A stretch of 64,000 nt of DNA from Gracilibacillus salitolerans (GTDB lineage Bacteria; Bacillota; Bacilli; Bacillales; Amphibacillaceae): the NCBI RefSeq assembly GCF_009650095.1, contig NZ_CP045915.1:4402001-4466000 (forward strand). The letters run 5' to 3'. The notes beneath the pieces are model-generated. The model saw only the letters and a program-made list of their open reading frames with translations. It made no database searches and had not been told where the DNA came from. Position 1 is the first letter of the stretch. Each line of letters opens with the position of its first letter. Below are positions 19,202 through 64,000 of the stretch, one piece after another. The position numbers were made by a program, and so were the translations under genes.

Positions 19202-20081
19202 CTAGGCTGCCTTTGCCCTGAATTGAACAGGAGAAAGGCAGTTTAATTTTGAAAATGGTCGTATATAGTTGTAATAATACATGTACAATTCCACTTTTTC
19301 TAGTACAATGGAATTTGTAAGACGCATCTTTTGATGTGTGTAGAATTCTTCCGACTTTATGGTGGAGTGGAAGGATTCAATGACGGCATTATCAAAGCAA
19401 TTACCTTTCCGGGACATGCTTGTGATAATGCCTTTTTCTTCAGCTAATTCTTGAAAAGCGTAGGATGTGTATTGAGCCCTTGATCACTATGAAGAATTAA
19501 TCCCTTTGTTTCACGTCCATTACAAGCTGCTTTCAGTGTTTCTAGCACTAATTCTTCTTCTTGGTTATGACTCACTCGATAAGCGACAATTTCGTTATTA
19601 TACAAATCCATAATGGTTGATAAATACATCATTGATTCCCCAAAAGGCAAGTAAGTAATATCAGTAACCCACTTTTGATTTGGTCTATCTGCCTTGAAAT
19701 TTTGTTCCAATAAATTAGGAACGACGCATTTACTTTCACCGGCGATGTTCGATTTTCTCTTTGGTTTTACCCGACATTGGATTTTATATTTTTGCATGAT
19801 CCTTTGTGCAGTAAGTCTGTTCACAGAAATGTTGTGTTCCTCTTTAAGTAACTTTTTAACCATTCGGTGTCCTACTCTGTAATGTAGGGATTTACAAATA
19901 TCAATAATAAGTTGTTCTAGTTCTGTTGGCTCCACGACTTTTGAGCCCAACGATAGTAAGTGGACCTAGGAACTCTGATACAATCACAAATCATCGATAC
20001 AGTATAAACTTCCTTTAACGACTCTACTAGTTCTATAACTATCTCTGGTACCAACTCCTTTCGATTTCCTGGTACTTTTTT
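19202..20081 (-). pseudogene. IS3 transposase orfB (DDE integrase), frameshifted
   Basis: Starting from the A6G slippage site, orfB reads KKVPGNRKELVPEIVIELVESL in the -1 frame and continues to 'RSTYYRWAQK'. Near 19935 the frame must shift by -1 to continue 'VVEPTELEQLIIDICKSLHYRVGHRMV'. Near 19470 it shifts again to pass from 'ILHSDQG' to 'QYTSYAFQELAEEKGIITSMSRKGNCFDNAVIESF'. The catalytic triad is still readable in pieces: Asp in 'WVTDITYLPF', Asp in 'HSDQG' and Glu in 'NAVIESFHS'. Two independent frameshifts and no intact full-length frame make this a decayed gene. Confidence 0.9.
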
Positions 20082-36157: not shown

Positions 36158-36598
36158 TTATTTATTCTCGTAATCTGTTAATTTACCAACACGGTTCGCG
36201 TGACGGCCGCCCTGGAACTCTGTACCTAACCATTCTTTAACTATTTCTCGTGCCAGACCAGCTCCAATGACACGTTCACCCATTGTGATCATGTTCGAAT
36301 CATTATGCTCACGAGTTGCTCTTGCACTAAATACATCATGTACTAGCGCAGCACGTATCCCTTTTACTTTGTTCGCTGCGATGGACATACCGATTCCAGT
36401 TCCGCAAATCAAAATACCACGATCAAATTCTCCGCTTGCTACTCGTTCAGCCGCCGGAATTCCGTAATCCGGGTAATCAACAGAATCTTCACAACCACAG
36501 CCAATGTCTTCATATTCAATGTTCAATTCTTCTAATAGAGATATAATTTCCTTTGACAGATTAATACCGCCATGATCAGATGCTAAAATGACTTTCAT
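36158..36598 (-). CDS. rpiB: Ribose 5-phosphate isomerase B (YwlF)
   Basis: A 146-residue RpiB-type isomerase. Signature stretches: 'ILASDHGGINLSKEI', 'YPDYGIPAAERVASGEFDRGILICGTGIGMSIAANKVKGIRAAL' with the catalytic Cys, and 'TREHNDSNMITMGERVIG'. It interconverts ribose 5-P and ribulose 5-P. Position before ywlG marks it as the housekeeping YwlF copy; a second, 43% similar-looking RpiB is in the polyol island at 55.7 kb (similarity judged by eye). Confidence 0.93.
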   Translation of the reverse strand: MKVILASDHGGINLSKEIISLLEELNIEYEDIGCGCEDSVDYPDYGIPAAERVASGEFDRGILICGTGIGMSIAANKVKGIRAALVHDVFSARATREHNDSNMITMGERVIGAGLAREIVKEWLGTEFQGGRHANRVGKLTDYENK

Positions 36599-48338: not shown

Positions 48339-49193
48339 TTATGCTTTACCTGAAGAACCGAATTCGCGCATTTTTCCGATTACTGTATCTTTAATCGCGT
48401 CACGACCTGGTCCTAAGTATTTACGTGGATCGATCATTTCTGGGTTCGCTTCTAATACTTCACGAACTACTTTTGTTTGTTGGATTTGGTTTTCTGTATT
48501 TACATTGATTTTAGATGTACCATAAGAAATTGCTTTTTGGATATCTTTAATCGGAATACCAGTTCCACCGTGAAGTACTAATGGAATACCAGCTACTGTA
48601 TTGATTTCTTCCATTTCTTTGAATCCTAAGTTTGGTTCCCCTTGATAAGGACCGTGTACAGAACCTAACGCTGGTGCAAGACAGTCAATTCCAGTACGTT
48701 CCACTAGCTCTTTACATTCGTTAGTATCTGCGTACATAATACCACCTTGTACACCGTCTTCATTACCTCCAACGGTACCAAGTTCTGCTTCAACAGACAC
48801 ACCATGGAAGTGTGCAAGTTCTACTACTTTAGAAGTTTTTTCTATGTTTTCCTCAAATGGATCATGTGAAGCGTCAATCATAACAGAAGTGAAACCTGCA
48901 TGAATTGCTTTTGCACAAGACTCAAAGCTTGAACCGTGATCTAAGTGAATAGCTACAGGCACTGTTGTACCTTGTGCTTCCATTGTCGCTTCTACCATTG
49001 CTACTACTACGTTGAACCCACCCATGTATTTCCCTGCGCCTTCAGATACACCAAGAATTACTGGTGACTTTTCTTCTTCTGCTGCTTGAAGAATAGCTTG
49101 TACATACTCTAGGTTATTAAGATTAAATTGACCTACAGCATAACGATTTTTATTGGCTGTTTCAAGCATTTCTTTCATTGAAACTAATGGCAT
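48339..49193 (-). CDS. fbaA: Class II fructose-bisphosphate aldolase
   Basis: A 285-residue zinc aldolase of glycolysis and gluconeogenesis. Zinc ligands: '[14 protein letters not shown]', '[10 protein letters not shown]' region and '[11 protein letters not shown]'. The catalytic Asp is in the first. Start is [10 protein letters not shown], seven bases after AAAGGAGG; 23 upstream codons lack a site. Full length for FbaA. In the order murAB-fbaA-spo0F, though the B. subtilis tal (ywjH) is absent between murAB and fbaA. Confidence 0.97.
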
Positions 49194-49374
49194 AATTGCT
49201 CCTCCTTTAAGGTATGTATATACAATTGATTCAACAATCGATCTTCTTACGAAAGATTGCACCCATTAATAGAATACCAATTCCGACAAAAAGGTGCAAC
49301 AAAACAATCGACAGAAAACGCTTACCTCGTCAAATTTCTGAAAATTACTCAAGGACTATTGAAAAATTAATCAT

Positions 49375-49734
49375 CTATTCCAAAATATTCTTCACCAATT
49401 GTCTAATGTCATTTAATTGAAATGGTTTCCCGATTGTTTTCTTAACAGATTTTAAATTTTGTACATCATCTTCTGCTTTTTCTGGCAAACCACTCATCAT
49501 AATAGTTGGGATAATAAGATTATCCTTTTCCAATTCTTTAACTAAAGTAGGTCCATCAATTATTGGTAACTTATAATCTAACATGATTAGATCAGGCTTA
49601 TTAGTCGTAATTTTGTCTAATGCTTCTTTTCCATTCAAAGCTAACTCTACTTTATACCCCTCTTGCTGAATGACTTCTTCTAGTAACAGTCGAATACCAA
49701 TTTGATCATCAACTACTAATACTGTTTTGTCCAT
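49375..49734 (-). CDS. spo0F: Sporulation phosphorelay response regulator Spo0F
   Basis: A 119-residue single-domain receiver carrying phosphate from sporulation kinases to Spo0B. 'VLVVDDQIGIRLLLEEV' gives the acidic pocket, 'DLIMLDYKLPIIDG' the phosphorylated Asp54, 'TIMMSGL' the Thr/Ser position, and 'KKTIGKPFQLNDI' the Lys. No output domain, as expected. A SigH-type promoter lies upstream. Confidence 0.95.
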   Translation of the reverse strand: MDKTVLVVDDQIGIRLLLEEVIQQEGYKVELALNGKEALDKITTNKPDLIMLDYKLPIIDGPTLVKELEKDNLIIPTIMMSGLPEKAEDDVQNLKSVKKTIGKPFQLNDIRQLVKNILE

Positions 49735-49841
49735 GTTCTGCCAGCTCCTTTATGTTTTTCTAATTATATTTATAGCTGCTTGGTTATAATGTCATAAATT
49801 GCGAATTGGCGTCCGTTTTTTAATAAGCCCTTTTTCTTATA

Positions 49842-49868
49842 GTTCGATATGATAGACGAAAATCCTGC
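49842..49868 (-). promoter_or_regulatory. Candidate SigH promoter of spo0F
   Basis: GCAGGATTT, an 11-bp spacer and ATCGAAC fit the SigH pattern RnAGGAWWW-N11/12-RnnGAAT with one mismatch. spo0F is SigH-controlled in B. subtilis. Confidence 0.55.
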
Positions 49869-49941
49869 AATATTCGTAGTATTTTTATAAAATTTGTTCT
49901 TTTTTTGAGCTGAAAAGTAGAAAATTCACTCTTTTTTTATG

Positions 49942-49974
49942 AAAAAAAACCGCCATAGTTAAGTACTATGACGA
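49942..49974 (-). terminator. Rho-independent terminator of pyrG
   Basis: CGTCATAGT pairs with ACTATGGCG (one G-U type mismatch), then a run of eight T on the minus strand. Confidence 0.88.
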
Positions 49975-49988
49975 TTTCTCTTCCTCTA

Positions 49989-51608
<1,620 letters not shown>

Positions 51609-51625
51609 TTATTGTTCTATCTTTT

Positions 51626-51664
51626 GCTTAGTATTCTGTTTTTATGGTAGTAGTCATACTAAGC
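51626..51664 (-). other. Inverted repeat in the pyrG leader
   Basis: Perfect 9-bp arms GCTTAGTAT/ATACTAAGC enclose 21 nt about 40 bp before pyrG. No T run follows, so it is not a terminator; it might fold in the leader mRNA. Confidence 0.5.
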
Positions 51665-51689
51665 TTGATGAAAAATTTGGTTCACTCCA

Positions 51690-51835
51690 ATAAAGTGAGA
51701 CTTCCATCAGTTGGGGTTTTCGGACGATTAGCACCGTGATAAAATGCTTAACCGACATCAGGGAATTCACTCGCTTTCCCGCAGGAATCTCGCATATCCC
51801 CCCCTTTGGAAAAGAATTTCATTGAAAGATAATAA
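51690..51835. repeat. Possible interspersed element at the pyrG/island junction
   Basis: The non-coding stretch contains, on the minus strand, GGGGGGGATATGCGAGATTC, then CTGCGGGAAAGCGAGTGAAT, and at its other end AACTGATGGAAGTCTCACTT. These phrases look like intergenic repeats I recall from Bacillaceae genomes, but only one copy is in the window. No gene is visible. Confidence 0.4.
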
Positions 51836-51854
51836 ATCATAATTGCTTTTAAAA

Positions 51855-51888
51855 AATAAAAAGCGCTCCCCTTAAGCAGGGGAACGCT
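51855..51888 (-). terminator. Rho-independent terminator of the rpiB-glpX-tal-tkt unit
   Basis: AGCG(TT)CCCCT pairs with AGGGG(A)GCGCT, followed by TTTTATTTTTT on the minus strand, about 85 bp after tkt. Confidence 0.85.
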
Positions 51889-51973
51889 GTGTATTTTCCA
51901 TTAAATTATGGAGCCCAATAAAAATTTTACTCAGAAGCTTGTGGAAAGTCAAGTATACTTTAATAGATATTTT

Positions 51974-53974
51974 TTATTTCATGATTGCCTTAAATCGATC
52001 GACTATATTTTCTACAGTAAATCCGTACTCTTTTACTACTATTTCACCTTCTCCTGAAGCGCCAAATTCTTCAATACTTACCACATCTCCATTATCTCCA
52101 ACATATTTATGCCAACCTAAAGAAGAGCCCATTTCAACTGCTAATCGTACCCTTAAATGATCAGGTAAAACTTCTTTCTTATACTCTTCAGGTTGTTGTT
52201 CGAATCGATCCCAAGAAGGCATACTGAGGACGGAAGCATAAATATTATCTTTGGCAAGAGCTTTTTGCACCATGATTGCTAAAGAAACTTCTGAACCTGT
52301 TGCTAACAATATCCCATCAGGTGATTCCTGTTCAGAAATTATATATGCCCCTTTACATACTCCTTCTTCCGCTTGTTCCCATGATTTCGTTAAAGTTGGC
52401 AGCTTTTGTCTAGTTAATACTAATGCATGTGGTCCATCAGTACTTTCTATTGCTAATTTCCATGCTGCTCTCACTTCATTTCCATCTGCAGGGCGGATAA
52501 CCGATAGATTTGGCATAGCTCTGAAAGAAGCTAAGTGTTCTACAGGTTCATGTGTCGGTCCATCTTCCCCCACTGCGATACTATCATGGGTCAATACATA
52601 AGTAACAGGCACTTTCATTAAGGCAGAAGTTCTTATCGCTGAACGAAAATAGTCCGAGAATACAAAGAATGTACCACCATACACATTTACTCCACCATGC
52701 AAAGCCATCCCATTTAATGCAGCCCCCATCGCAAACTCTCTAACACCAAACCAAATGTTACGACCAGTATAACTATTTGCTGAAAAATCTTGTTCATTAT
52801 TTATTTTAGTTTTATTTGATCCGGATAAATCGGCAGAACCCCCAATAAAATATGGTATTTGTTGAGCAATTTCATTTAGTACTTTGCCAGATGCATCTCT
52901 AGTTGAAATAACATCAGAATAGAAGAATGATGGCAGGGGCTTATTCCAATTCTCCGGAAGTTGACCATTCATTGCATTTTTTAGTTCATTAGCTAATACT
53001 GGATAAGCTGTCTGATAGGCTTCCCATAATCTGTTCCACTCTTCCTCTTTTTCTCGTGCTTCTTCTTTCTGTTGTTGGTAAAATTCTTTTACTTCATTTG
53101 GTATTGTAAAAGGATCATTATACTTCCAATCATAGTTTTCTTTAACCAATTTCATTTCACTTTTTCCTAACGGGACACCATGTGCTTGTGAAGTACCACC
53201 TTTGTTTGGAGAACCAAACCCTATTGTTGTTTTGACTTCAATTAATGTTGGTTTTCTTCTATTTTGTTTGGCTAATAATATTGCTTCGTTTATTTCTTCT
53301 AGATCATTACCATCTTCCACATTTAATACTTGCCAATTATATGCTTTATACCTGGCTCCTACATTTTCCGAAAAAGAGCGGTCTAAATCACCATCCAACG
53401 AAATATCATTTGAATCATAAAATACAATTAATTTCCCTAGTTTTAAGTGTCCTGCTAAAGAAGCGGATTCCTGTGAAACACCTTCCATCAAGTCTCCATC
53501 ACTACATAGACAATACGTAAAATGATCAATGACCGAATAGCTTTGTTTGTTATATTTCTCAGCAAGGAATCTTTCAGCCATAGCCATTCCAGTTGCCATA
53601 GATATTCCTTGACCCAGTGGACCTGTTGTAGCCTCCACACCTAAAGTGTGCCCATATTCCGGATGTCCTGGAGTTTTACTTCCCCATTGCCTGAAATTTT
53701 TAAGTTCAGCTAAGGAAAGGCCATACCCGTAAAGGTGTAACAAGCTATAAAGCAAAGCAGATCCATGTCCTGCAGATAGGATAAATCGGTCACGATTGAA
53801 CCAATTTGGATTTTCTGGATTGTGTTTTAACTGCTTAGACCATAAAACATGTGCCATTGGTGCTGCTCCCATCGGCAAACCAGGATGGCCAGAATTTGCT
53901 TTTTCTATCATATCAATCGAAAGCATTCTGATTGTATTAATCGTAAGTTGATCGATATCAATAGTCGACGCCAT
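51974..53974 (-). CDS. tkt: Transketolase
   Basis: A 666-residue thiamine-diphosphate enzyme with all three domains. '[32 protein letters not shown]' opens the pyrophosphate domain, '[43 protein letters not shown]' is the ThDP/metal motif, and '[19 protein letters not shown]' belongs to the pyrimidine domain. It moves two-carbon units among sugar phosphates, and can use erythrose 4-P. The start is ATG of MASTIDID, eight bases after AAGGAG. Full-length tkt within a catabolic operon suggests a dedicated copy; the housekeeping tkt is expected elsewhere. Confidence 0.95.
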
Positions 53975-53986
53975 TGTTTTCACTCC

Positions 53987-54631
53987 TTATTTAGGAACAT
54001 TTTCCCAATCAGCTAAAAACTTCTTAATACCTATATCTGTTAATGGATGGGTCCATAGCTTAGGGAATAAAGAACCTGGAATTGTTGCAATATCTGCACC
54101 AGCAACAGCAGCATCTTGTAAATGGTTGATATTACGAACACTAGCAGTTATAATTTCTGTTTCATATTTGTATTCCGTTAATATTGTTTTTAATTCTTTC
54201 ACTAAAGCAATCCCTTCTGTTCCAATATCATCTATCCTTCCGACAAACGGACTGATATATGTCGCGCCAGCTTTTGATGCCATTAAACCCTGAGCTGCAG
54301 AAAATATTAAAGTAACATTTGTTTTGATTCCCTCCTCAGATAACTTGTTCACTGCACGCAAACCTGCTTCTGTCATCGGAATTTTAACTACTACATTAGG
54401 AGACCATTTTGCAATTTCCCTTGCTTCTTTCAACATATCCTCCGTTTCTAACCCAATAACTTCAGCACTGACCGGCCCATCTACAAGACCACATATTTCT
54501 TTTATTACTTCTTCAAAATCTCTACCTTCTTTTGCAATAATAGATGGATTAGTAGTGATACCATCCACAAGTCCCAACTCATTTACTCTTTTTATCTCTT
54601 CTATATTTGCAGTATCAAGAAAAAATTTCAT
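53987..54631 (-). CDS. tal: Transaldolase (TalC/MipB type)
   Basis: A 214-residue single-barrel transaldolase. '[36 protein letters not shown]' and the Schiff-base Lys in '[15 protein letters not shown]' are diagnostic, as is '[33 protein letters not shown]'. It links F6P + erythrose 4-P to S7P + GAP. In B. subtilis this type (YwjH) lies between murAB and fbaA; here that place is empty and the gene is in the island. It is 12 bp before tkt. Confidence 0.95.
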
Positions 54632-54687
54632 TATACTCCTCCTCGAATGCTATAATTTCAAATAAATCATGAGAAAGTTAAAGGTTT

Positions 54688-55638
54688 TCAAGCTACGTGT
54701 GGATTAGGGTGTTTGCATTTCACATATCTTAACTGTTTACTTTCACCATTTAAAATTAAAGAGTGCGTAGTATAATTTGATTCAGCGTCCGTTTTAATAC
54801 CATCAAGCAAAATATTTTCTGTAATACCCGTTGCAGTAAATACACATTCTTCTGATTTCACTAAATCGGAAAGCCTTAAGGCAATTTCGGGATATTCTAG
54901 TCCCATTTCAACACATCTATCGTATTCTTTTCTCGATCGCGGTAATAACCGGGCCTGCATATCGCCATTTAAACATTTCACTGCAACAGCAGCTACTACA
55001 CCTTCTGGAGCACCGCCAATTCCATAGAATAAATCTATTTCTTGATCTTTTATACAAGTAGCAACAGCATACGTGATATCTCCTTCATCAAACAAATGGA
55101 CCTTGGCGCCAATATTTCTTATTTCTTCAATCCATTTATTATGACGTTCTCTTTTTTGAATTAATACTTTAACATCGTTTATATTTTTACCATTTGCTTT
55201 TGCCACCGTATGAACATTTTCAGTTAATGAGGCGTTAATATCTACTTTATCTTTCGCTTTTGCACCTACCACTAACTTCTCCATATACATATCCGGCGCA
55301 TGCAACAATGCCCCCCTCGGTGCTGCGGCAATTACAGTAAACGCATTATCCTGACCATTTACGGTTGAAGTGGTACCTTCAATAGGGTCAACAGCAATAT
55401 CCACTTTGGTTCCGAAGCCAGTACCTACTTGTTCTCCGATATACAACATGGGAGCATCATCTAGTTCACCTTCGCCTATAACAATTCTGCCATTAAAATT
55501 AATTTGATTCAGTGTATCTCGCATTGCATTTGTTGCAGCTCCATCCGCTTTTAATTTATCTCCGCTTCCTACCCAAGGATAAGAAGCTATAGCAGCCTGT
55601 TCCGTCACCTTCAGAAAATCAAATGTTAAATTTTTCAA
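54688..55638 (-). CDS. glpX: Class II fructose-1,6-bisphosphatase GlpX
   Basis: A 316-residue metal-dependent phosphatase that makes F6P from FBP. 'ALGSGDKLKADGAATNAMR'-type region 'WVGSGDKLKADGAATNAMRDTLNQINFNGRIVIGEGELDDAPML' and 'DIAVDPIEGTTSTVNGQDNAFTVIAAAPRG' are the catalytic signatures, and 'GIGGAPEGVVAAVAVKCLNGDMQARL' follows. The start is TTG, nine bases after GGGAG. In B. subtilis the GlpX gene (ywjI) lies between rho and murAB; here that slot is occupied by an unrelated small ORF, so this may be the only GlpX. Confidence 0.95.
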   Translation of the reverse strand: MKNLTFDFLKVTEQAAIASYPWVGSGDKLKADGAATNAMRDTLNQINFNGRIVIGEGELDDAPMLYIGEQVGTGFGTKVDIAVDPIEGTTSTVNGQDNAFTVIAAAPRGALLHAPDMYMEKLVVGAKAKDKVDINASLTENVHTVAKANGKNINDVKVLIQKRERHNKWIEEIRNIGAKVHLFDEGDITYAVATCIKDQEIDLFYGIGGAPEGVVAAVAVKCLNGDMQARLLPRSRKEYDRCVEMGLEYPEIALRLSDLVKSEECVFTATGITENILLDGIKTDAESNYTTHSLILNGESKQLRYVKCKHPNPHVA

Positions 55639-55675
55639 GATATTACTCTCCCTTTCCTGCTTAAGCTACAGAAGG

Positions 55676-56134
55676 TTATTTTGAAGATTTGGCAATAAAC
55701 TCATTTTCTCTATTTGTAATTTTGTTTACTTTTCTCTCTGATCCCCCACCCCAAAACGAATTTAGATATGCTGCTACAACTTTTTTACCAACCTCCGGCC
55801 CTATGATTTGCGCACCCATTGTCAAAATCTGCGCGTTATTACTTAGCTGAGCTCTTTCAGCAGAGTAAGTATCATGGCAAAGCGCAGCTCGGATACCAGG
55901 GTATTTACAAGCAGCAATGGCCACCCCAATACCCGTGCCGCAAATTAAAATACCTCGATCCACTTTATTTTCACTTACATCTTCAGCAACTTGAAAAGCT
56001 ACATCTGGATAATCAACCGCGTCACATGAATAACATCCATAGTCTATAAATTCATATTTTTCACTATCTAAATACTTTTTAATTTCTTCTTTCAAATCGA
56101 ATCCATTATGATCACTACCAACCGCTATTTTCAT
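55676..56134 (-). CDS. RpiB-family sugar-phosphate isomerase of the polyol island
   Basis: A 152-residue RpiB-fold isomerase. It keeps 'IAVGSDHNGFDLKEEIKKYL', 'DYPDVAFQVAEDVSENKVDRGILICGTGIGVAIAACKYPGIRAALCHDTYSAERAQLSNNAQILTMGAQIIG', with the catalytic Cys. It could isomerise ribose 5-P, but another RpiB (ywlF) is present at 36 kb. RpiB-fold enzymes (e.g. DerI) also convert erythrulose 4-P to erythrose 4-P, which fits the kinase, dehydrogenase, tkt and tal genes around it. First gene of its operon, with operators upstream. Confidence 0.88.
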   Translation of the reverse strand: MKIAVGSDHNGFDLKEEIKKYLDSEKYEFIDYGCYSCDAVDYPDVAFQVAEDVSENKVDRGILICGTGIGVAIAACKYPGIRAALCHDTYSAERAQLSNNAQILTMGAQIIGPEVGKKVVAAYLNSFWGGGSERKVNKITNRENEFIAKSSK

Positions 56135-56179
56135 TATCTTTCTTCTCCTTTCGTTTTTAATTGTTTATGAATTTATTCT

Positions 56180-56356
56180 ATTATACTTTTTGTTATTTTT
56201 CAATGTTATTTTTTATTTATTTTCGTTTATTAACGAATAGTTTTATTGAATAGATAGTAATCAATCTAAACTTCAAAAAATATTAATTTTTCCCTTCAAA
56301 TGCATAAATAACGAAACTTGTTATTAATTTCGTTTACTTTCATTATGTGATACAAT
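56180..56356. promoter_or_regulatory. Divergent control region with TTTCGTT-type operators (DeoR)
   Basis: The -10 TATAAT of the rpiB operon (minus strand) is at 56180-56185; its -35 is poor. A perfect inverted repeat TTCGTT-N4-AACGAA is at 56222-56237, and AACGAAA-N11-TTTCGTT at 56310-56334. The latter overlaps the likely -35 of the regulator gene (TTTCGT, 17 bp, TACAAT at 56351-56356, plus strand). Repeated TTTCGTT motifs are usual for DeoR-family repressors. Confidence 0.65.
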
Positions 56357-56401
56357 TATGGAAGACTTGAATAACTTTAGAATTAAATAAGGGTGATGAT
56401 A

Positions 56402-57172
56402 TTGAGTAAAATGTTTGCTACTGAACGAAGAAATGCTATCCTAGAGATTTTACAAGATAAAAAAAGAGTCACTGTAAAAGATCTATCTAAAATATTAAAC
56501 GTATCAGAAGCCACCTTGAGAAGTGACCTGTCAAATATGGAAAAGAAAGGGTTACTCACAAGAACACATGGTGGTGCTGTTCTTGATTCTCCTATAAATG
56601 CAGAAAATACATTTTCTGCTCGAGAAAAGAAAAATAAAGAAAGTAAAATTGCCATAGCAAAAACAGCAATGACTTTCATCAATGATAAGGACTGTATCCT
56701 TTTGGACGCTAGCACAACTGCATTGGAAATTGCCCGTTTATTAAAAGACCAAAATATTCGTCTGACGGTACTAACAAACGGGATTTCAGCGGCTATCGAA
56801 ATGCGGGATAACCCTGCAATCACAGTGATTCTTTTAGGGGGGATGCTAAGAAATGGATCTATGGCATTAGAAGGTCCTTTTGGAACTAGTATCTTAAACC
56901 AGATTCACGTCGATACTATGTTTACATCCGCTAGAGGGTTCACTATAGAGGAAGGATTAACAGATTTCAGTGTATACGAAGTGGAATTAAAAAAGGCGTT
57001 AATTAGTAAAGTTGAAAAAGTTGTCGCTATAATAGATCATTCGAAAATTGGGGATAACTCCATTGCATCCTTCGCCAATATACAAGATATTGATGTCTTT
57101 ATTTCTGACCAGGATATCGACGACACACTTAAGGAAACTTTCCATAATAACGGTATCGATTTTATTGCTTAA
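56402..57172 (+). CDS. DeoR-family transcriptional regulator of the polyol island
   Basis: A regulator of about 256 residues, the only long plus-strand gene in the window. N-terminal HTH 'RRNAILEILQDKKRVTVKDLSKILNVSEATLRSDLSNMEKKGLLTRTHGGAV' is the DeoR signature, and the DeoRC sensor domain ('LLDASTTALEIARLLKDQNIRLTVLTNG', 'LLGGMLRNGSMALEGPF') binds a sugar phosphate. I prefer the TTG start of LSKMFATERR, after AAGGGTGAT; a GTG and an ATG three codons up are alternatives. Its own promoter is crossed by an operator, so autoregulation is likely. Confidence 0.9.
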   Translation: MSKMFATERRNAILEILQDKKRVTVKDLSKILNVSEATLRSDLSNMEKKGLLTRTHGGAVLDSPINAENTFSAREKKNKESKIAIAKTAMTFINDKDCILLDASTTALEIARLLKDQNIRLTVLTNGISAAIEMRDNPAITVILLGGMLRNGSMALEGPFGTSILNQIHVDTMFTSARGFTIEEGLTDFSVYEVELKKALISKVEKVVAIIDHSKIGDNSIASFANIQDIDVFISDQDIDDTLKETFHNNGIDFIA

Positions 57173-57278
57173 TCTTTTAGGTACATGAAATTATTATTCC
57201 AAAGTGATTTTTAAAGAATACTGGAAAGAACCAACACTGCGTGAAGTTGCGTCACAATATATACTTTTTTGTTAATTT

Positions 57279-57317
57279 AAAACAGAAGGACAAAATTAAT
57301 GTTCCTTCTGTTTTTCT
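57279..57317. terminator. Bidirectional terminator between the regulator and dhaL
   Basis: AAACAGAAGGA pairs with TCCTTCTGTTT; TTTTTC follows on the plus strand and TTTTAAATT on the minus. It serves both converging genes. Confidence 0.85.
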
Positions 57318-57334
57318 TAGTTTTGGTACATTAT

Positions 57335-57976
57335 TTATTTTACACCAGAAAGACTTTTCTGAAAGCATTTCATAATTGCATAGGCAGATGTAGCCCCTGG
57401 ATCTTGGAATCCTTTCGAGCGATTCCCTAACCTACTCGATCTCCCTTTATTAGATACCATATCTTTCGTAGACAGCATTCCCCTTTCAGCTTCTTTCAAT
57501 GCTTTATCCATTGCTTGTAAAAAAGACTGAGTATTTTTTTGAGCCCTCAAAGATTGTACTAATGGGTCAATAGAATCAATCATCGTCTTATCACCAACTT
57601 CTGCTTGACCGCGTTCTTTAATACCCTCACCAAAGGCGATCCAGAAGTCAAATAAGTCTTGATCCTCAAGTTCTGATTTACCCTTTAAAATTTTGCTGCC
57701 CCTCAAAAATCCGGTGGCATAAAGCGGACCCACAGAAGAACCAACAGCATTGAGAAAAGTTTTCGCCACTACTTTATTGATTTCTCCTCCATCTGTTTCA
57801 TCTTTTAATTCTTTATCTAACTTTTTCTTTACAGCCTGCCAACCAATTGACATCGTTACACCATGATCACCATCACCTAGTTTTCGATCCAAATCAGACA
57901 GATAATCTTTTTCGTTTTCGATCATCTCAATAACATCGTATAAGTATTGTTTATACTGATCTGTTGTATATGTCAT
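57335..57976 (-). CDS. DhaL-type kinase subunit (ATP-binding)
   Basis: A 213-residue DhaL protein. 'LYDVIEMIENEKDYLSDLDRKLGDGDHGVTMSIGW' holds the nucleotide/Mg residues and 'AVGSSVGPLYATGFLRGSK' plus 'GRSSRLGNRSKGFQDPGATSAYAIM' the second half. It phosphorylates the ketose bound by DhaK. No DhaM (PTS phosphotransfer) is nearby, so it may use ATP, or a DhaM elsewhere. Start MTYTTD is 20 bp after dhaK. With DhaK it probably acts on a ketotetrose rather than dihydroxyacetone; this is inferred from context. Confidence 0.88.
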   Translation of the reverse strand: MTYTTDQYKQYLYDVIEMIENEKDYLSDLDRKLGDGDHGVTMSIGWQAVKKKLDKELKDETDGGEINKVVAKTFLNAVGSSVGPLYATGFLRGSKILKGKSELEDQDLFDFWIAFGEGIKERGQAEVGDKTMIDSIDPLVQSLRAQKNTQSFLQAMDKALKEAERGMLSTKDMVSNKGRSSRLGNRSKGFQDPGATSAYAIMKCFQKSLSGVK

Positions 57977-57996
57977 AATATCATTTCCCCCGTTCC

Positions 57997-59001
57997 TTAT
58001 AATTGTGCATACATTGGGCAATCTGCTTCTGCATCAATCAACTTCATTAATTCATCATCCAACTTTGTGAAGGTAACAGAACAGCCTCCCATCTCTAATG
58101 ACGTACTGTAATTTCCTACAAAGGAACGATAAATTCCAATACCTTTTTCTGTCAGGATTTGTTCAACTCTTCTAAATATGATGTATAATTCCATTTTAGT
58201 AGTGGAACCAAGTCCATTTATAAGTACAGCAACTTTATCACCTTTTGAAATAGTAATATCATTTAATATATCTTGGACTAACCTGTCTGCTACTTTATCG
58301 GCTTCTTGTAATTCACCTTTTTCCACACCAGGTTCACCATGGTGACCCAGGCCAATTTCCATTTCATTATCTTCTAATATAAAACTAGGTTCATTTGTTT
58401 GCGGTAAATAACATGGACTCAAACCTACCCCCATTGTTCGCGTAACATCGTTTGTCTTTCTTGCTACTTCCGCTACCTCTTTTAAGCTGTATCCCATTTC
58501 CGCTGCAGCGCCGGAAGCCTTCGTAACGAAGAATTCCCCTGCGATACCTCGTCTTTTTTCCTTTTCATTATTTGGAGCAGAGGCTACATCATCATTTACT
58601 ACAACAAGCTCTACATCAATATCTTCTTCTAACTCTGCTAGTTCTGCAGCCATTCCAAAATTCATAATATCACCAGCGTAGTTCCCGTAGATATATACAA
58701 CACCATTCCCTTTATCTATTGCTTTGGTTGCTTCTACAATTGGAGCCGGTGGTGGGGAAGCAAAAATATTCCCTACAGCTACACCATCTGCCATACCTTT
58801 ACCTACATACCCCATAAAAGCTGGTTCATGACCTGAACCTCCTCCTATTAGCACACCTACCTTATTTGCACGAGTTTGACTTGCAATAACAATCGAACGC
58901 TTATTTTCTTTTAATCGTCGTACTTGTTTTGGATGTGCCTTCACATAACCATCAATCATTTCATCAACTACATCGTTTGGATTATTTATTAACTTTTTCA
59001 T
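57997..59001 (-). CDS. DhaK-type ketose-binding kinase subunit
   Basis: A 334-residue DhaK. 'KKLINNPNDVVDEMIDGYVKAHP', 'VGVLIGGGSGHEPAFMGYVGKGMADGVAVGNIFASPP' and the substrate-binding His in 'EIGLGHHGEPGV' (the His forms a hemiaminal with the keto sugar). The start is MKKLIN, nine bases after GGGAGGG; a closer ATG sits on the ribosome site. DhaK with DhaL phosphorylates dihydroxyacetone in classical systems and erythrulose in tetritol pathways. Neighbouring dehydrogenase supports the latter. Confidence 0.88.
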   Translation of the reverse strand: MKKLINNPNDVVDEMIDGYVKAHPKQVRRLKENKRSIVIASQTRANKVGVLIGGGSGHEPAFMGYVGKGMADGVAVGNIFASPPPAPIVEATKAIDKGNGVVYIYGNYAGDIMNFGMAAELAELEEDIDVELVVVNDDVASAPNNEKEKRRGIAGEFFVTKASGAAAEMGYSLKEVAEVARKTNDVTRTMGVGLSPCYLPQTNEPSFILEDNEMEIGLGHHGEPGVEKGELQEADKVADRLVQDILNDITISKGDKVAVLINGLGSTTKMELYIIFRRVEQILTEKGIGIYRSFVGNYSTSLEMGGCSVTFTKLDDELMKLIDAEADCPMYAQL

Positions 59002-59037
59002 TTTTGACATCCCTCCCTAAAATATAAACGCAAGAAA

Positions 59038-59070
59038 TATTTGCAGATCCTTTTAATGGAATCTGCAAAT
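59038..59070 (-). other. Intercistronic hairpin between the dehydrogenase and dhaK
   Basis: ATTTGCAGATCC pairs with GGAATCTGCAAAT (one bulged base). It lies just after the dehydrogenase stop, with ATTTCTT following on the minus strand. It may partly terminate or protect mRNA. Confidence 0.55.
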
Positions 59071-59074
59071 AGTT

Positions 59075-60160
59075 TTAAGGTACAAGGACTACTTTGAGTG
59101 AATCTTTACCGTTTTTTACCATTTCAAAACCTTTTTCAAAGTCTTCTAATACTAGTTGATGTGTGACAACACCTTCTGTCGGAAAATCTCCATTTGCAAT
59201 CCCGTCAATAACAATAGGATAGCAATACGGTCCTAGATGTGAACCTAATATGTCCAGTTCTTTACGATCTCCAATAATACTCCAGTCAATTGTAACCGGA
59301 TCTTTAAATACACTGAATTCTACAAATCTGCCTAATTTCCTAACCGCAGATAAACCTTGTTCTACCGATTTCGGATGTCCAGTAGCTTCAATATAAATAT
59401 CACATCCATATCCTTCTGTCAGGTCTTTAATAATTTGTACTGCATCTTCCCTGGAAGGGTTAATCGTTAAATCAGCTCCAAACTTCTTTGCAAGTTCCAG
59501 TCTATCATCAAGCAAATCCAATACTACTAACTTTCCAGCCCCTGCTTTTTTAGCTGCTCCAACCATACCAAGACCTAGCGTACCTGCTCCGGCAATTACA
59601 ACCGTATCTCCAATTTGAATCTGCGCTCTTTGAACAGCATGTAATGAACAAGCATACGGTTCTATTAAAATAGCTTTTTCAATTGGCATATCTTCTGGCA
59701 CTTTATAATTTATCGCTTCTTTTGTGAATTTCATATATTCTGCCATACCGCCATGGACATTATACTGAAAACCATACAGGTCATGTTTTTCGCACATCCA
59801 ATATTGGCCACGTTTACAAAAGCGGCAATCCCAACATGGAACTATCTGCTCGGATATAATTCGATCACCTACTTCAAAGTCTCTAACAGCATCTCCAAGT
59901 GCTACTACTCGACCAATGAATTCATGACCTGGTATTACAGGGGCCTTTATATAAGCTGGTTGATAACCGTCTCCCCAAAATGAAACCGCACCTGCATGAG
60001 CTTTTGCATCACCGGCACAAATCCCACATGCTTCTACTTCAACAATGATTTCTTGGTCATTTTCAAGTTTTGGAGTATCCACTTCTTCTAAGCGATAATC
60101 CCCTGGCTGATAAGCTACAATCGCTTTCATTTTCTCTGGTATCGTTTGTTTATTTGTCAT
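59075..60160 (-). CDS. Zinc-dependent polyol dehydrogenase (erythritol/L-threitol dehydrogenase-like)
   Basis: A 361-residue medium-chain dehydrogenase. Catalytic zinc: Cys in 'VEACGICAGDAKAHAG' and His-Glu in 'VIPGHEFIGRVV'. Structural zinc: 'CWDCRFCKRGQYWMC'. NAD-binding: 'VVIAGAGTLGLGMVGAAKKAGAGKLVVLD'. The phrases 'FWGDGYQPAYIKAPVIPGHEF', 'EATGHPKSVEQGL' and 'DWSIIGDRKELDILGSHLGPYCYP' are what I recall for erythritol/L-threitol dehydrogenases of Mycobacterium type. Start MTNKQT is nine bases after GGGGAGG. It would oxidise a polyol to a ketose, feeding DhaK/DhaL. Confidence 0.82.
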   Translation of the reverse strand: MTNKQTIPEKMKAIVAYQPGDYRLEEVDTPKLENDQEIIVEVEACGICAGDAKAHAGAVSFWGDGYQPAYIKAPVIPGHEFIGRVVALGDAVRDFEVGDRIISEQIVPCWDCRFCKRGQYWMCEKHDLYGFQYNVHGGMAEYMKFTKEAINYKVPEDMPIEKAILIEPYACSLHAVQRAQIQIGDTVVIAGAGTLGLGMVGAAKKAGAGKLVVLDLLDDRLELAKKFGADLTINPSREDAVQIIKDLTEGYGCDIYIEATGHPKSVEQGLSAVRKLGRFVEFSVFKDPVTIDWSIIGDRKELDILGSHLGPYCYPIVIDGIANGDFPTEGVVTHQLVLEDFEKGFEMVKNGKDSLKVVLVP

Positions 60161-60176
60161 GTTCATTTTCCTCCCC

Positions 60177-61307
60177 TTAAATTAATGTTGCTGTTACTTT
60201 TTTATTCTCAATACGTTCACCTGTATCAACATCAAAGATATGAATACGATCCGTATCAAATTTTATCTTTATATGATCACCTGTATCAAAGGAATAAATT
60301 TCTTCGGAAACTATACTTAAGATGTTATCTTCTTCTATCTTAATATGAATCCTGCATTCCTCACCTAAATTCTCAAAAACTGTCACATTCGTGTCGATCG
60401 AATAAGACTGATCATTAGTTATGACCGCTATATCAGTAGGTCGAATTCCAAAATGATATTCTTTACCTTCTTGAACAAATTCCACGTATTTATCAGGGAC
60501 TTTAAATTCTATCTTTCCATTTTTGGAAGTGAAATATATGTTTCCATCTATAAATTTGGTGAAAACACTGAAAATATTCATAGGCGGTTCTCCTATAAAA
60601 CCAGCTACAAATTCATTCGCGGGATGATTAAAAACCTCGACCGGTGAGCCAAATTGTTGTAATACACCATCTTTAATAATTGCAATCCGATCCGCCAAAG
60701 CCATTGCTTCCAGTTGATCGTGTGTTACGATAATGGTCGTACATTTAATTTCATTATGCAGATGCTTAATTTCAGTTCTCATTTTTTGCCGAACTTTTCC
60801 ATCAAGGTGTGAAAGTGGTTCATCTAGCAAAAGTACTTCTGGTCTTCTTATTAATGCTCTTGCGATGTTTACTCTTTGTTTTTGCCCTCCGGATAATGCA
60901 CTAGGGCTCATATGCAACAAATCTTTTATGTCTAGTAATTCTGAAATTTTTTCTACTTCTTTCTTAATTTTGTGTCTTGATACATTTTTAGCTCTCATAT
61001 TAAAACTAATATTTTGATAAACTGATAATGGTGGATACATGGCATAATTCTCAAACGCCAGCCCAATATTCCTGTCCTTTGGATGTAAATCATTTATCTT
61101 ACGATCACCAATCCATATATCTCCACCGGTAATATCCTCTAAACCAGCAATCATTCTTAAAGTCGTTGATTTACCACAACCAGACGGCCCTAGTAATGCA
61201 ACAAATTCTCCATCAATTGTTTCAATATTTAAATCGCTAACGGCATGTATTGGCTCTTTATTTTTATAATACGTTTTGTATAAATTATCTAATTTTAGCT
61301 TTGCCAT
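60177..61307 (-). CDS. Carbohydrate/polyol ABC transporter ATP-binding protein 1 (UgpC/MalK type)
   Basis: A 376-residue ATPase with C-terminal TOBE regulatory domain. Walker A 'LGPSGCGKSTTLRMIAGL', signature 'LSGGQKQRVNIARAL', Walker B 'VLLLDEPLSHLDGK' and switch 'VTHDQLEAM'. Its start overlaps the end of the second ATPase by 13 bp, so both are translated together. Two different ATPases in one operon suggest a heterodimer, as in rhizobial GlpS/GlpT polyol transporters. Confidence 0.93.
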   Translation of the reverse strand: MAKLKLDNLYKTYYKNKEPIHAVSDLNIETIDGEFVALLGPSGCGKSTTLRMIAGLEDITGGDIWIGDRKINDLHPKDRNIGLAFENYAMYPPLSVYQNISFNMRAKNVSRHKIKKEVEKISELLDIKDLLHMSPSALSGGQKQRVNIARALIRRPEVLLLDEPLSHLDGKVRQKMRTEIKHLHNEIKCTTIIVTHDQLEAMALADRIAIIKDGVLQQFGSPVEVFNHPANEFVAGFIGEPPMNIFSVFTKFIDGNIYFTSKNGKIEFKVPDKYVEFVQEGKEYHFGIRPTDIAVITNDQSYSIDTNVTVFENLGEECRIHIKIEEDNILSIVSEEIYSFDTGDHIKIKFDTDRIHIFDVDTGERIENKKVTATLI

Positions 61308-62431
61308 ACTACCTCTCCCTTAGCATCTTTGATAAATTTAGAAAGAAAGTTAATTTCATCAGTTCCAAAGAACATCGCTTTATTAATATCTAATTCAATA
61401 TATACAGGCTGATCCATATCAATTTGCAAAACAGACGGTACGACTAACCTTATCTGATTTCCATCTTTTTCAACCGTAAAAACTGCCTTTGCCCCCAAAG
61501 GCTCAAAGCTGTAGACAGAACACTCCACACTATAATCATTTTCTTTCGTGAAGCTATATTTAATATCTTTAGGTCTTATTCCCACCCTCACGGATCGAAC
61601 ACTTTCGTCCAATTTGCTCTTTACCTTTTCTGGAATGTCTTGGATTTCAGCTTCTTCAAAAATCGATAGTTGCTTATCTTCTGTTATAATTGCATCGAAA
61701 AAATTAATTTCCGGTTCCCCAAAGGAACTTGCAACAAATTCATTATGCGGATAATAATAGATATCATCCGGTGTTCCAATCTGTTCTATTTTTCCTTCAT
61801 TAAGGATCGCTATTTTATCCCCTAAACTTAATGCTTCCAAATAATCATGTGTAACATATATAGTAGTCGTATCGAGGTTCTTCTGCATTTCTTTAAGTTC
61901 TGCTCTCATCTGATGGCGCAGTTTAGCATCTAGGTGTGTTATTGGTTCATCCATAAGAAACACATTAGGAGTTCTAACTAATGCTCTTCCTAACCCAACA
62001 CGTTGCCGTTGCCCATTTGATAATTCGGAAATATTTCTTTCTAACAAATGATCAATCTTTAATATTCTGGCAACTCTTGTCACTTCTTTTTCTATGATTT
62101 CATTTAACTCTTTGTATTTTGGACTTCTAAGAGGTGATGCAATATTTTCAAAAACTGTTAAATGCGGATATAACGCATAATCTTCAAAAACCATGGCAAT
62201 GTTTCGATCTTCCGGTTCAACGTGATTAAAATATTCACCATTTAAGTAGACATTTCCGTAATCCGGCAAATATAGTCCTGCTATCACATTCAACAATGTT
62301 GTTTTTCCAGCCCCAGCCGGGCCAAAAATCACAAAGAATTCTTTATCTCTTACTGTTAAATTTATATTGTCTAGAGCTATATCTTTTTTAAATTTTTTGG
62401 AGATTGACTTCAATGTAATGTCTGCCATCAT
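61295..62431 (-). CDS. Carbohydrate/polyol ABC transporter ATP-binding protein 2
   Basis: A 378-residue paralogue of the first ATPase. Walker A is 'FGPAGAGKTTLLNVIAGL' and Walker B 'VFLMDEPITHLDAK', but the signature reads 'ISELSNGQRQRVGLGRAL' (LSNGQ instead of LSGGQ), hinting that the two sites of a heterodimer differ. TOBE domain after residue 240. It ends inside the start of the first ATPase gene. Substrate specificity comes from the binding protein, outside the window. Confidence 0.93.
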   Translation of the reverse strand: MMADITLKSISKKFKKDIALDNINLTVRDKEFFVIFGPAGAGKTTLLNVIAGLYLPDYGNVYLNGEYFNHVEPEDRNIAMVFEDYALYPHLTVFENIASPLRSPKYKELNEIIEKEVTRVARILKIDHLLERNISELSNGQRQRVGLGRALVRTPNVFLMDEPITHLDAKLRHQMRAELKEMQKNLDTTTIYVTHDYLEALSLGDKIAILNEGKIEQIGTPDDIYYYPHNEFVASSFGEPEINFFDAIITEDKQLSIFEEAEIQDIPEKVKSKLDESVRSVRVGIRPKDIKYSFTKENDYSVECSVYSFEPLGAKAVFTVEKDGNQIRLVVPSVLQIDMDQPVYIELDINKAMFFGTDEINFLSKFIKDAKGEVVWQS

Positions 62432-62446
62432 TTTTCCTCCTTTCTA

Positions 62447-63262
62447 TTAACCTTTCACTGATCCCATACTCAAACCACGCACAAGGTGCTTCTGGATAGA
62501 TAGTGCCAAAATAATAATTGGCAACGACGAAATTAATACTGCACCTGCCATTTGACCATAATGCACAGTATCAGATGCGACATATTGCAACATTGCTACT
62601 GTGGTGGTGGTAACATCCTGCCCCGCTAACAATAACGAGAATGTGAAATTGTTCCATACAAATATCAGCGACAACAATGCTGAGGCAACTAATCCTGGAC
62701 GAATTAACGGCATCACTATTTTCATAAACACTTGCCACCATGAATAACCATCAAGTCTGGCTGCATTTTCTACTTCTACTGAAATATCCTCGAAGTATCC
62801 TCTTAGAATCCAAATCAATAATGGTAAGGACAAAACTTGGAATACCCAAATTAATCCTACGTAAGTATCATATAGTCCTAATTCCTGGTAAAGAAGGAAT
62901 AAAGGCAAAACAACTAATATCTCTGGTGCAAAACGAAAAGATAAGAATGTAAATGCAATTCCGTCTCTCCCTTTAAAATCAAACCGAGCAAGCGCATAAG
63001 CTGCTGGTACACCTACAACTATGGACAGAGCGATGGCCCCAAAACTAACAATAATATTATCTAAGAAATATCCTATATATTCTCCATCGGAAAATAGCGC
63101 TCGATAGTTTTCTAATGTCGGTGTGAATATAAAGGTGGTATTAAACATATCTCTATCATGTTTAAAAGAAAGTATTATCAGCCACACCAGGGGAAATATC
63201 GCATAGAAAGCATACAAAAGAAGTGCTACATTTTGCAGAATCGCTATAATTTTCTTTTTCAT
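62447..63262 (-). CDS. ABC transporter permease (UgpE/MalG type)
   Basis: A 271-residue protein with six membrane helices. The cytoplasmic EAA loop, which docks the ATPase, is 'VENAARLDGYSWWQVFMKIVMPLIRPGL'. N-terminal 'MKKKIIAILQNVALLLYAFYAIFPLVWLIILSFK' is typical of CUT1 second permeases. Start chosen at MKKKII after AGGGAG. It pairs with the permease encoded upstream and the two ATPases downstream. Confidence 0.92.
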   Translation of the reverse strand: MKKKIIAILQNVALLLYAFYAIFPLVWLIILSFKHDRDMFNTTFIFTPTLENYRALFSDGEYIGYFLDNIIVSFGAIALSIVVGVPAAYALARFDFKGRDGIAFTFLSFRFAPEILVVLPLFLLYQELGLYDTYVGLIWVFQVLSLPLLIWILRGYFEDISVEVENAARLDGYSWWQVFMKIVMPLIRPGLVASALLSLIFVWNNFTFSLLLAGQDVTTTTVAMLQYVASDTVHYGQMAGAVLISSLPIIILALSIQKHLVRGLSMGSVKG

Positions 63263-63269
63263 ATTCTCC

Positions 63270-64000
63270 CTACTTTCCTGAAGCTTTATTTTGCGTATAT
63301 GTCCAATATTTAACAATGTAATGACTTAAGAAGTATACAAACACCCACAGAATTAGCATAAATGGTAAAGATACACCTAATTCTTTATACGTAAATGCTT
63401 CGGTATAAGCTGTTAAAGGTAATGTCATTAAAGTGTCACCTGGTCCCCCACGAGTTAATGCAAAAATGATATCAAACATTTGCAATGACAACATCAATCG
63501 GAACAATACCGCAATAATTAACATTGGCATAATCATTGGCAAGGTTAAATTTTTGAAAGTAAACCAAGCTGAACCGCCGTCAATCATAGCCGATTCAAAT
63601 GGTGCTTTGGGTAATGAACGTAAACCTGCTAATACCAGAATGGTTACAAATGGTGTAAAAACCCAAGCATCAATAAGTAATACAGTAAATAGTGCCGTTG
63701 AGGGATCTGCTCCCCAATTAAAGTTTGAAATCCCGAGTTGTCGTAACCAGTCACTGTATATACCTACTGAATTATTCGTCATTAACTGCCATATAATTGT
63801 CGCGATAACCGGAGCAATAACTAGTGGAAAAATTAAAACAATACGTAGAGATCTTGATATGAAATTCTCTCGATTTAACAGTAGTGCTATCCCGATTCCC
63901 AGTAATGTTTCGATTAATGTCGCTAAACCTGCATATGTTAAGGTAACACCCACACTATGCCAGAAATTTGCAGAGGTAAACATCGACAGCCAATTTTCCA
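63270..64000 (-). CDS. ABC transporter permease (UgpA/MalF type), N-terminus beyond window
   Basis: At least 242 residues; the frame stays open to the right edge ('ENWLSMFTSANFWHSVGVTLTYAGLATLIETLLG...'), so the true start is outside. EAA loop 'PFESAMIDGGSAWFTFKNLTLPMIMPMLI'. Five or more membrane helices are visible. It is the first permease of the CUT1 transporter; a substrate-binding protein gene is expected just past the edge. Confidence 0.9.
   Translation of the reverse strand, partial: ENWLSMFTSANFWHSVGVTLTYAGLATLIETLLGIGIALLLNRENFISRSLRIVLIFPLVIAPVIATIIWQLMTNNSVGIYSDWLRQLGISNFNWGADPSTALFTVLLIDAWVFTPFVTILVLAGLRSLPKAPFESAMIDGGSAWFTFKNLTLPMIMPMLIIAVLFRLMLSLQMFDIIFALTRGGPGDTLMTLPLTAYTEAFTYKELGVSLPFMLILWVFVYFLSHYIVKYWTYTQNKASGK

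Follow-up and report, generated by a model that had tools for sequence, protein, structure and literature searches.

We describe a gene island at the right end of a 64,000-nucleotide stretch of Gracilibacillus salitolerans DNA (the window; positions 4402001-4466000 of a 5.09-Mb single-contig genome, NZ_CP045915.1) and propose, with a probability of about 0.68, that it is an inducible locus for the use of erythritol, which would be converted by way of D-erythrulose and D-erythrulose 4-phosphate to erythrose 4-phosphate (E4P). In the proposed pathway, an ATP-binding cassette (ABC) transporter composed of a binding protein, two permeases, and two ATPases would import erythritol, a zinc-dependent dehydrogenase would use NAD+ to oxidize it to D-erythrulose, a DhaK-DhaL kinase of two chains would use ATP to make D-erythrulose 4-phosphate, and an RpiB-fold enzyme would isomerize this product to D-erythrose 4-phosphate. 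The E4P would then be consumed by transketolase and transaldolase and/or by a bypass through aldolase and GlpX acting as a sedoheptulose-bisphosphatase, and one or both of two DeoR regulators would repress both transcription units until an inducer arrives. The three-step chemistry is known; the arrangement of these known enzyme types is new. An earlier annotation made from the letters alone (the sequence-only reading) had placed a tetritol or erythrulose pathway here, and it is largely supported by the names of proteins similar to the dehydrogenase, an isomerase active site unlike that of RpiB, and a linkage between kinase and isomerase genes in 66 of 67 related loci.

An RpiB-fold isomerase with an altered active site

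The isomerase gene (window 55676-56134, minus strand) encodes a protein that, by alignment, has Ser98 at the position of the ring-opening histidine of RpiB (His99 of the Escherichia coli enzyme, EcRpiB), together with Arg94, Ser132, and Lys135; we propose that it is a D-erythrulose-4-phosphate isomerase. A tetrose 4-phosphate cannot form a furanose ring of the kind that this histidine opens, so for such a substrate the residue would be dispensable. In EcRpiB, His99 opens the furanose ring, and the histidine is described as conserved in true RpiB proteins (PMC3755991). RpiB-like genes from related loci (L020 to L099) number 67, and 66 of them have all four island residues; in the exception (L053), Arg and Ser98 are present and the match stops after 118 residues, before the other two positions. 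The fungal structures 3qd5 and 3sdw likewise have Arg, two Ser, and Lys at these positions; we take 3sdw to be the same Coccidioides immitis protein as 3qd5. The island residues thereby align with the phosphate-contact residues of this fungal RpiB-like enzyme, in which Ser109, Ser145, and Lys148 bind phosphate and Arg105 lies behind Ser109 (PMC3212906). The authors of that structure, whose figure legend names 3QD5, remarked on the change from His to Ser and suspected shorter-chain substrates (PMC3212906).

The other RpiB copies of the genome differ at these positions. The housekeeping-type copy (36158-36598), 45% identical to the island isomerase, has Ala/His/His/Arg, and a third copy has Gln/His/Asp/Arg. 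In a survey of 20 relatives and the window's genome, for which 27 new loci were read, the histidine was kept in 21 of 21 housekeeping-type RpiB copies from 19 relatives. The Ser form appeared in three of the 27 loci (L137, L140, and L142), and three others had neither form (L141, L143, and L144; L141 and L143 are identical in the displayed sequence). Arg, Ser, Ser, and Asn occupy the four positions both in structure 5ifz, presumably a Brucella protein, and in a Rhizobium etli RpiB-like gene beside a 3-oxo-isoapionate-4-phosphate decarboxylase gene. Taken by its residues, the island "RpiB" looks like a four-carbon-sugar enzyme and not a ribose enzyme.

As a separate observation, the third RpiB-like gene of the genome (L149, 8515-14398; G000:C1, approximately 4128500-4134400) adjoins genes for a LacI-type regulator, a 3-hydroxyisobutyrate-dehydrogenase-like protein, and an ABC transporter with its solute-binding protein.

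Linkage of kinase and isomerase genes in relatives

Related loci were taken as the best 80 of 124 ranked by DhaK, with genes counted by tblastn up to 10 kb on each side; L150, which is the same DNA as L020, was counted once. The gene-neighborhood search for co-occurring families that accompanied the sequence-only reading as a proposal found DhaK accompanied by the isomerase gene in 66 of the 67 loci with a DhaK at least 54% identical to that of the island, and in 1 of the 13 below this line, which was chosen after the data had been seen. The lone exception (L025) lies on a contig shared with L026, which has an isomerase gene. Among the 49 loci with a DhaK at least 60% identical, DhaL was found in 49, an RpiB-like gene in 48, an EltD-like (erythritol/L-threitol dehydrogenase-type) gene in 38, GlpX in 36, a major facilitator superfamily (MFS) transporter in 31, transketolase in 18, both ABC ATPases in 6, transaldolase in 4, and DhaM in none. 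The 18 loci between 54 and 60% had RpiB in all 18, the EltD-like dehydrogenase in 11, and again no DhaM. The closest DhaK matches among named loci came from G. orientalis (L020; 91%) and G. dipsosauri (L021; 87%), and in both species the gene order is identical to that of the island. Chance is thus ruled out for the gene set, since its order recurs in these two loci and the set itself recurs across the Bacillales, where it is common among the loci found.

Parts of the set also occur on enterobacterial plasmids. On an E. coli plasmid (L100, 5158-14357), tkt-tal-rpiB stands with dehydrogenase-MFS-dhaK-dhaL and the gene for a sugar-binding regulator, with insertion sequences on both sides; its EltD-like dehydrogenase and DhaK are 75% and 48% identical to those of the island, and its RpiB has the same four residues. 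Plasmids of Klebsiella, Raoultella, and Salmonella carry dehydrogenases that are 74 to 75% identical. In a DhaK tree whose inner support is weak and which served for conserved residues only, the branches of the E. coli plasmid and of a Listeria gol locus fall outside the main group. Among open-license papers, we found none on this gene set, only papers on related pathways.

Dehydrogenase and choice of tetritol

The zinc-dependent dehydrogenase (59075-60166, minus strand) belongs to the medium-chain dehydrogenase/reductase families and, by the names of similar proteins, is EltD-like. It is 76 to 81% identical to proteins named erythritol/L-threitol dehydrogenase, names that were themselves given by similarity, and at least 10 of the 120 listed dehydrogenase matches bear that name, with most of the others named generically or differently. 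The products of EltD and LerK are D-erythrulose 4-phosphate from erythritol and L-erythrulose 1-phosphate from L-threitol (PMC10733421); the latter route needs LerI, a homologue of triosephosphate isomerase (TPI). Only one TPI is encoded in the genome, so there is no separate LerI. Use of D-threitol would require a DthD-like short-chain dehydrogenase/reductase (SDR), and none of the 29 matches in the genome exceeded the GolD/DthD family cut-off, a strict one that 0 of 14 control genomes pass. On these two grounds, erythritol ranks first and L-threitol second as the probable substrate. The sequence-only reading had put erythritol and threitol on the same footing; of the two, erythritol by way of D-erythrulose is favored, and D- or L-threitol is less so.

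The same chemistry might nevertheless serve L-threitol, free L-erythrulose, or more than one tetritol, with the housekeeping TpiA performing the LerI step. EltD and LerK do handle L-threitol as well, and TpiA and LerI, as homologues, may share activity (PMC10733421). Moreover, in uncultured marine alphaproteobacteria (L075, L077, L078, L080, and L081), DhaK is paired with both a TPI-like gene and RpiB, in the order dhaK-TPI-like-dhaL divergent from an rpiB with a Ser-type site. We nonetheless consider an L-threitol or L-erythrulose locus unlikely: there is no TPI-like gene at the island, the genome holds the single copy, and such a gene occurs in just 1 of the 49 closest loci (L047).

Kinase and phosphate donor

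The kinase is split into the ketose-binding subunit DhaK (57997-59010) and the nucleotide-binding subunit DhaL (57335-58021), both on the minus strand; for DhaL (TIGR02365, 176 bits; PF02734), an in-frame ATG at 57976 is possibly the likelier start. His61 and His224 of DhaK are conserved in 81 of 81 aligned DhaK proteins and Asp140 in 80 of 81, and we take these three to be the catalytic residues. DhaK scores just below the cut-offs of both PRK14479 (460.8 bits) and the phosphotransferase system (PTS)-type DhaK model TIGR02363 (390.6 versus 406.25 bits), the second of which is passed by another DhaK of the genome (514.8 bits), 52% identical to that of the island. This second DhaK belongs to a separate glycerol locus with genes for a MIP channel, GlpK, a glycerol-3-phosphate dehydrogenase/oxidase-like protein, DhaL, and DhaM. 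The description of the island as having "DhaK and DhaL without DhaM" therefore holds for the locus and fails for the genome. DhaM was found neither at the island nor in any of the 67 loci with a DhaK at least 54% identical. When 34 genomes with related loci, of unstated completeness, were searched with the DhaM model TIGR02364, 17 had no match, 16 had a match above the cut-off, and 1 had a weak match. In the 17 genomes, the donor is thus unlikely to be a DhaM of the TIGR02364 family, and ATP is the natural inference; ATP may likewise be the phosphate donor for the island's DhaK and DhaL, in a genome whose glycerol locus does encode a DhaM.

The annotation of DhaK and DhaL as dihydroxyacetone kinase would fit a glycerol/dihydroxyacetone locus, in which glycerol would be converted to dihydroxyacetone and then to dihydroxyacetone phosphate, with tkt, tal, and GlpX serving gluconeogenesis, and a Listeria locus (L105) has a related set that includes DhaM, TPI, RpiB, an SDR, fsa, and tkt. 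We regard this as quite improbable, because the genome already has another glycerol locus with a MIP channel, GlpK, and DhaKLM and because dihydroxyacetone phosphate needs no RpiB-fold isomerase, yet an isomerase with the modified site is present in 66 of the 67 loci. A pentose or other C5/C6 route, with the RpiB-fold enzyme a real ribose-5-phosphate or similar isomerase, has very little in its favor: the protein does score above the cut-off of the rpiB equivalog TIGR01120 (154.2 versus 138.65 bits), but the ring-opening histidine is replaced in it and in the 67 related-locus genes while the two other RpiB copies of the genome keep it, and DAK (dihydroxyacetone kinase-type) enzymes act on small ketoses.

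Evidence weighing against erythritol

Several observations count against an erythritol locus, as do the late choice of the 54% line and the restriction to the best 80 of 124 loci. The curated families that the isomerase matches are generic RpiB ones (RpiB/LacAB); it reaches 148.5 bits against the curated rhizobial DerI model NF051858, which needs 240 (the housekeeping-type RpiB reaches 125.9). The Ser form also exists outside tetritol loci, as in a Streptomyces plasmid, where an RpiB with Cys/Ser/Ser/Lys adjoins aminotransferase and radical-SAM genes. Other proteins in the list of dehydrogenase matches are named iditol, sorbitol, or threonine dehydrogenase or have generic names, and dehydrogenase relatives at 55 to 56% identity in Caballeronia and Providencia lie beside transporters, with no kinase or isomerase gene in the stretch shown. 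Both the island DhaL (176 bits) and, more strongly, the DhaL of the glycerol locus (244.5 bits) exceed the 138.3-bit cut-off of the PTS-type DhaL model; the glycerol locus also supplies the genome with a DhaM (126.2 versus 98.25 bits).

Eight of the 49 closest loci (L034, L042, L043, L044, L047, L050, L065, and L066) combine the DhaK/DhaL/RpiB core with an IolE-like barrel gene and a 3-hydroxyisobutyrate-dehydrogenase-like gene, and the EltD-like dehydrogenase is present in 0 of the 8. The kinase-isomerase core can therefore serve other inputs, perhaps in these loci an acid-sugar route ending in erythrulose. In two congeners (L145 in G013 and L146 in G011), the stretch read holds a DeoR-GlpX-Tal-Tkt unit and neither DhaK nor DhaL, so the kinase unit and the E4P outlet need not occur together. 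Finally, Brucella GlpX is reported to prefer fructose 1,6-bisphosphate over sedoheptulose 1,7-bisphosphate (PMC11005471).

Possible outlets for erythrose 4-phosphate

Genes for both E4P outlets, through transaldolase and through a GlpX bypass, are encoded in the island. All are on the minus strand: tkt for transketolase (51974-53983; TIGR00232, 954.6 bits), tal for a TalC/FSA-type transaldolase (53987-54631; TIGR00875, 310.1 bits), and the gene for GlpX (54688-55638; TIGR00330, 400.6 bits), a class II bisphosphatase for fructose-1,6- and perhaps sedoheptulose-1,7-bisphosphate. Growth of Brucella on erythritol needs either transaldolase or an aldolase/bisphosphatase bypass (PMC11005471), and the island GlpX may act as a sedoheptulose-bisphosphatase. 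The genome has a second full-length frame for transketolase outside the island, tal is one of two TAL_FSA matches, and GlpX is the only GlpX match. We considered whether GlpX is a displaced housekeeping gene; against this, 10 of 16 congeners have no GlpX match, so the gene is not constant within the genus.

Transport, regulation, and gene order

The transporter genes all lie on the minus strand. The sequence-only reading had noted two different ATPases, and the two MalK/UgpC-type proteins, A (61295-62431) and B (60177-61307), both assigned by family match, are indeed only 36% identical over 365 amino acids. The 15 listed plasmid matches to ATPase A, at 39 to 46% identity, have generic ATPase or UgpC names or none. 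Permease 2 (62447-63316; PF00528, BPD_transp_1) is kept in L020 and L021. Permease 1 (63270-64000; PF00528) is cut by the window edge, and the whole gene is at 15270-16199 of L003. A binding-protein gene, sought to the right of the window, was found there by family match (SBP_bac_1/8; L003, 16260-17675), along with the remainder of permease 1 and, upstream, a second DeoR-family gene (DeoR 2; L004, 1839-2657; family match). With this right flank included, the island is complete. An ABC transporter together with a DhaM-less kinase had been put forward as a new combination, but other genomes have it too: DhaK and DhaL are accompanied by a transporter that has both ATPases in 6 of the 49 closest loci (L020, L021, L041, L048, L049, and L061).

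DeoR 1 (56393-57172, plus strand; DeoR-family NCBIfam models), a DeoR/GlpR-family regulator, is 44% identical to DeoR 2. Between DeoR 1 and the isomerase gene, an intergenic region of 258 bases (56135-56392; GC content, 20%) holds four copies of AACGAAA, compared with a mean of 0.08 and a maximum of 2 in 2000 base shuffles, and one further copy lies upstream of the binding-protein gene. In relatives, the motif was found upstream of DeoR in only 38 of 61 regions (the 61 including three weaker DeoRs). The copies may be DeoR operators, which we offer as a lead only. A promoter scan did no better than shuffles (49 versus 47.2), and a terminator scan did little better (9 versus 6.6). A 13-pair hairpin with a weak T-rich tail lies between the dehydrogenase and DhaK genes (window 59038-59071); near chance by the scan's control, it is perhaps an attenuator or processing site.

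The genes noted in the sequence-only reading are all open frames, and the family assignments of transketolase, transaldolase, GlpX, RpiB, DeoR, DhaL, DhaK, and the zinc-dependent dehydrogenase were confirmed. One minus-strand unit runs from the binding protein through permease 1, permease 2, ATPase A, ATPase B, the dehydrogenase, and DhaK to DhaL; the other, beyond the plus-strand DeoR 1, comprises the isomerase, GlpX, transaldolase, and transketolase genes. DeoR 1 and the isomerase unit are transcribed away from each other, and DeoR 1 and the transporter/kinase unit toward each other. On the other flank are frames that we recognize as pyrG, a response regulator, and fba. An Rfam search of window 49000-64000 gave no match. 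Far from the island, near a SpoIID gene and murA, a 168-amino-acid frame (window 19444-19950) with HTH_21 and a partial integrase core is probably an IS3-type fragment.

Relation to known pathways

The proposed pathway is closest in its chemistry to that of Mycolicibacterium smegmatis (EltD, DerK/LerK, DerI, and LerI; Huang 2015 as cited in PMC10733421, PMC10190533, and PMC12780249), whose route has three steps and ends in E4P (PMC10190533). Both begin with oxidation, continue with a DAK-type kinase, and finish with an RpiB-fold isomerase that yields (in the island, would yield) E4P, and the linkage of a DAK-type kinase to an isomerase seen in 66 of the 67 loci is a shared feature as well. DerK and DerI are taken here to belong to the DAK-type and RpiB-fold families, respectively. 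DerK and LerK are single chains, whereas the island kinase is split into DhaK and DhaL. The island also differs in having no LerI- or DthD-like gene and in having transketolase, transaldolase, and GlpX at the locus together with an ABC transporter with two different ATPases.

The Brucella ery pathway (EryA, EryB, EryC, EryH, and EryI) also has as its last enzyme an RpiB-fold isomerase, which makes E4P (PMC5992420), as is proposed for that of the island. In contrast to the proposed pathway, phosphorylation of erythritol is the opening step there, and three isomerases take part. No EryA kinase or EryB dehydrogenase is among the island genes; a genome-wide search for them was not made. Halanaerobium polyolivorans is reported to grow on erythritol without ery genes or a known kinase (PMC10536098).

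The gol locus of a Listeria innocua plasmid (L105, 2340-10939) encodes DeoR, DhaM, DhaK, DhaL, TPI, RpiB, a DthD-like SDR, fsa, and tkt. It shares with the island DhaK (46% identical), DhaL, an RpiB with the same four residues by alignment, fsa, tkt, and DeoR, and it differs in having DhaM, TPI, and the DthD-like SDR and in lacking, within the stretch, an EltD-like dehydrogenase and GlpX. The gol operon has reportedly been published as a dihydroxyacetone/glycerol operon, the model for the glycerol/dihydroxyacetone reading of the island given above. Although L105 is annotated accordingly, it resembles an erythrulose/tetritol operon.

Implications

Tetritol-catabolizing microorganisms have been described as offering wide scope for finding improved EryC, LerI, and DerI isomerases (PMC10733421). 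We would give even odds to a wider reading of the residue patterns, in which the Arg-Ser-Ser-Lys class would be tetrulose-4-phosphate isomerases under the RpiB name in many Firmicutes, in some Proteobacteria, and in at least one fungus, and would form with DhaM-free DhaK/DhaL a widespread, unrecognized erythritol/erythrulose economy of the Bacillales; loci labeled glycerol/dihydroxyacetone, such as Listeria gol, would then be tetritol operons. If the proposal for the island is right, wrong names are carried by many rpiB and dhaK/dhaL genes of Bacillales, staphylococci, Listeria, and certain plasmids of enterobacteria, and inspecting a few residues in the sequence can help to put them right. 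The island itself would then be a compact, probably ATP-driven module from erythritol to E4P with its own pentose-phosphate outlet, useful in metabolic engineering.

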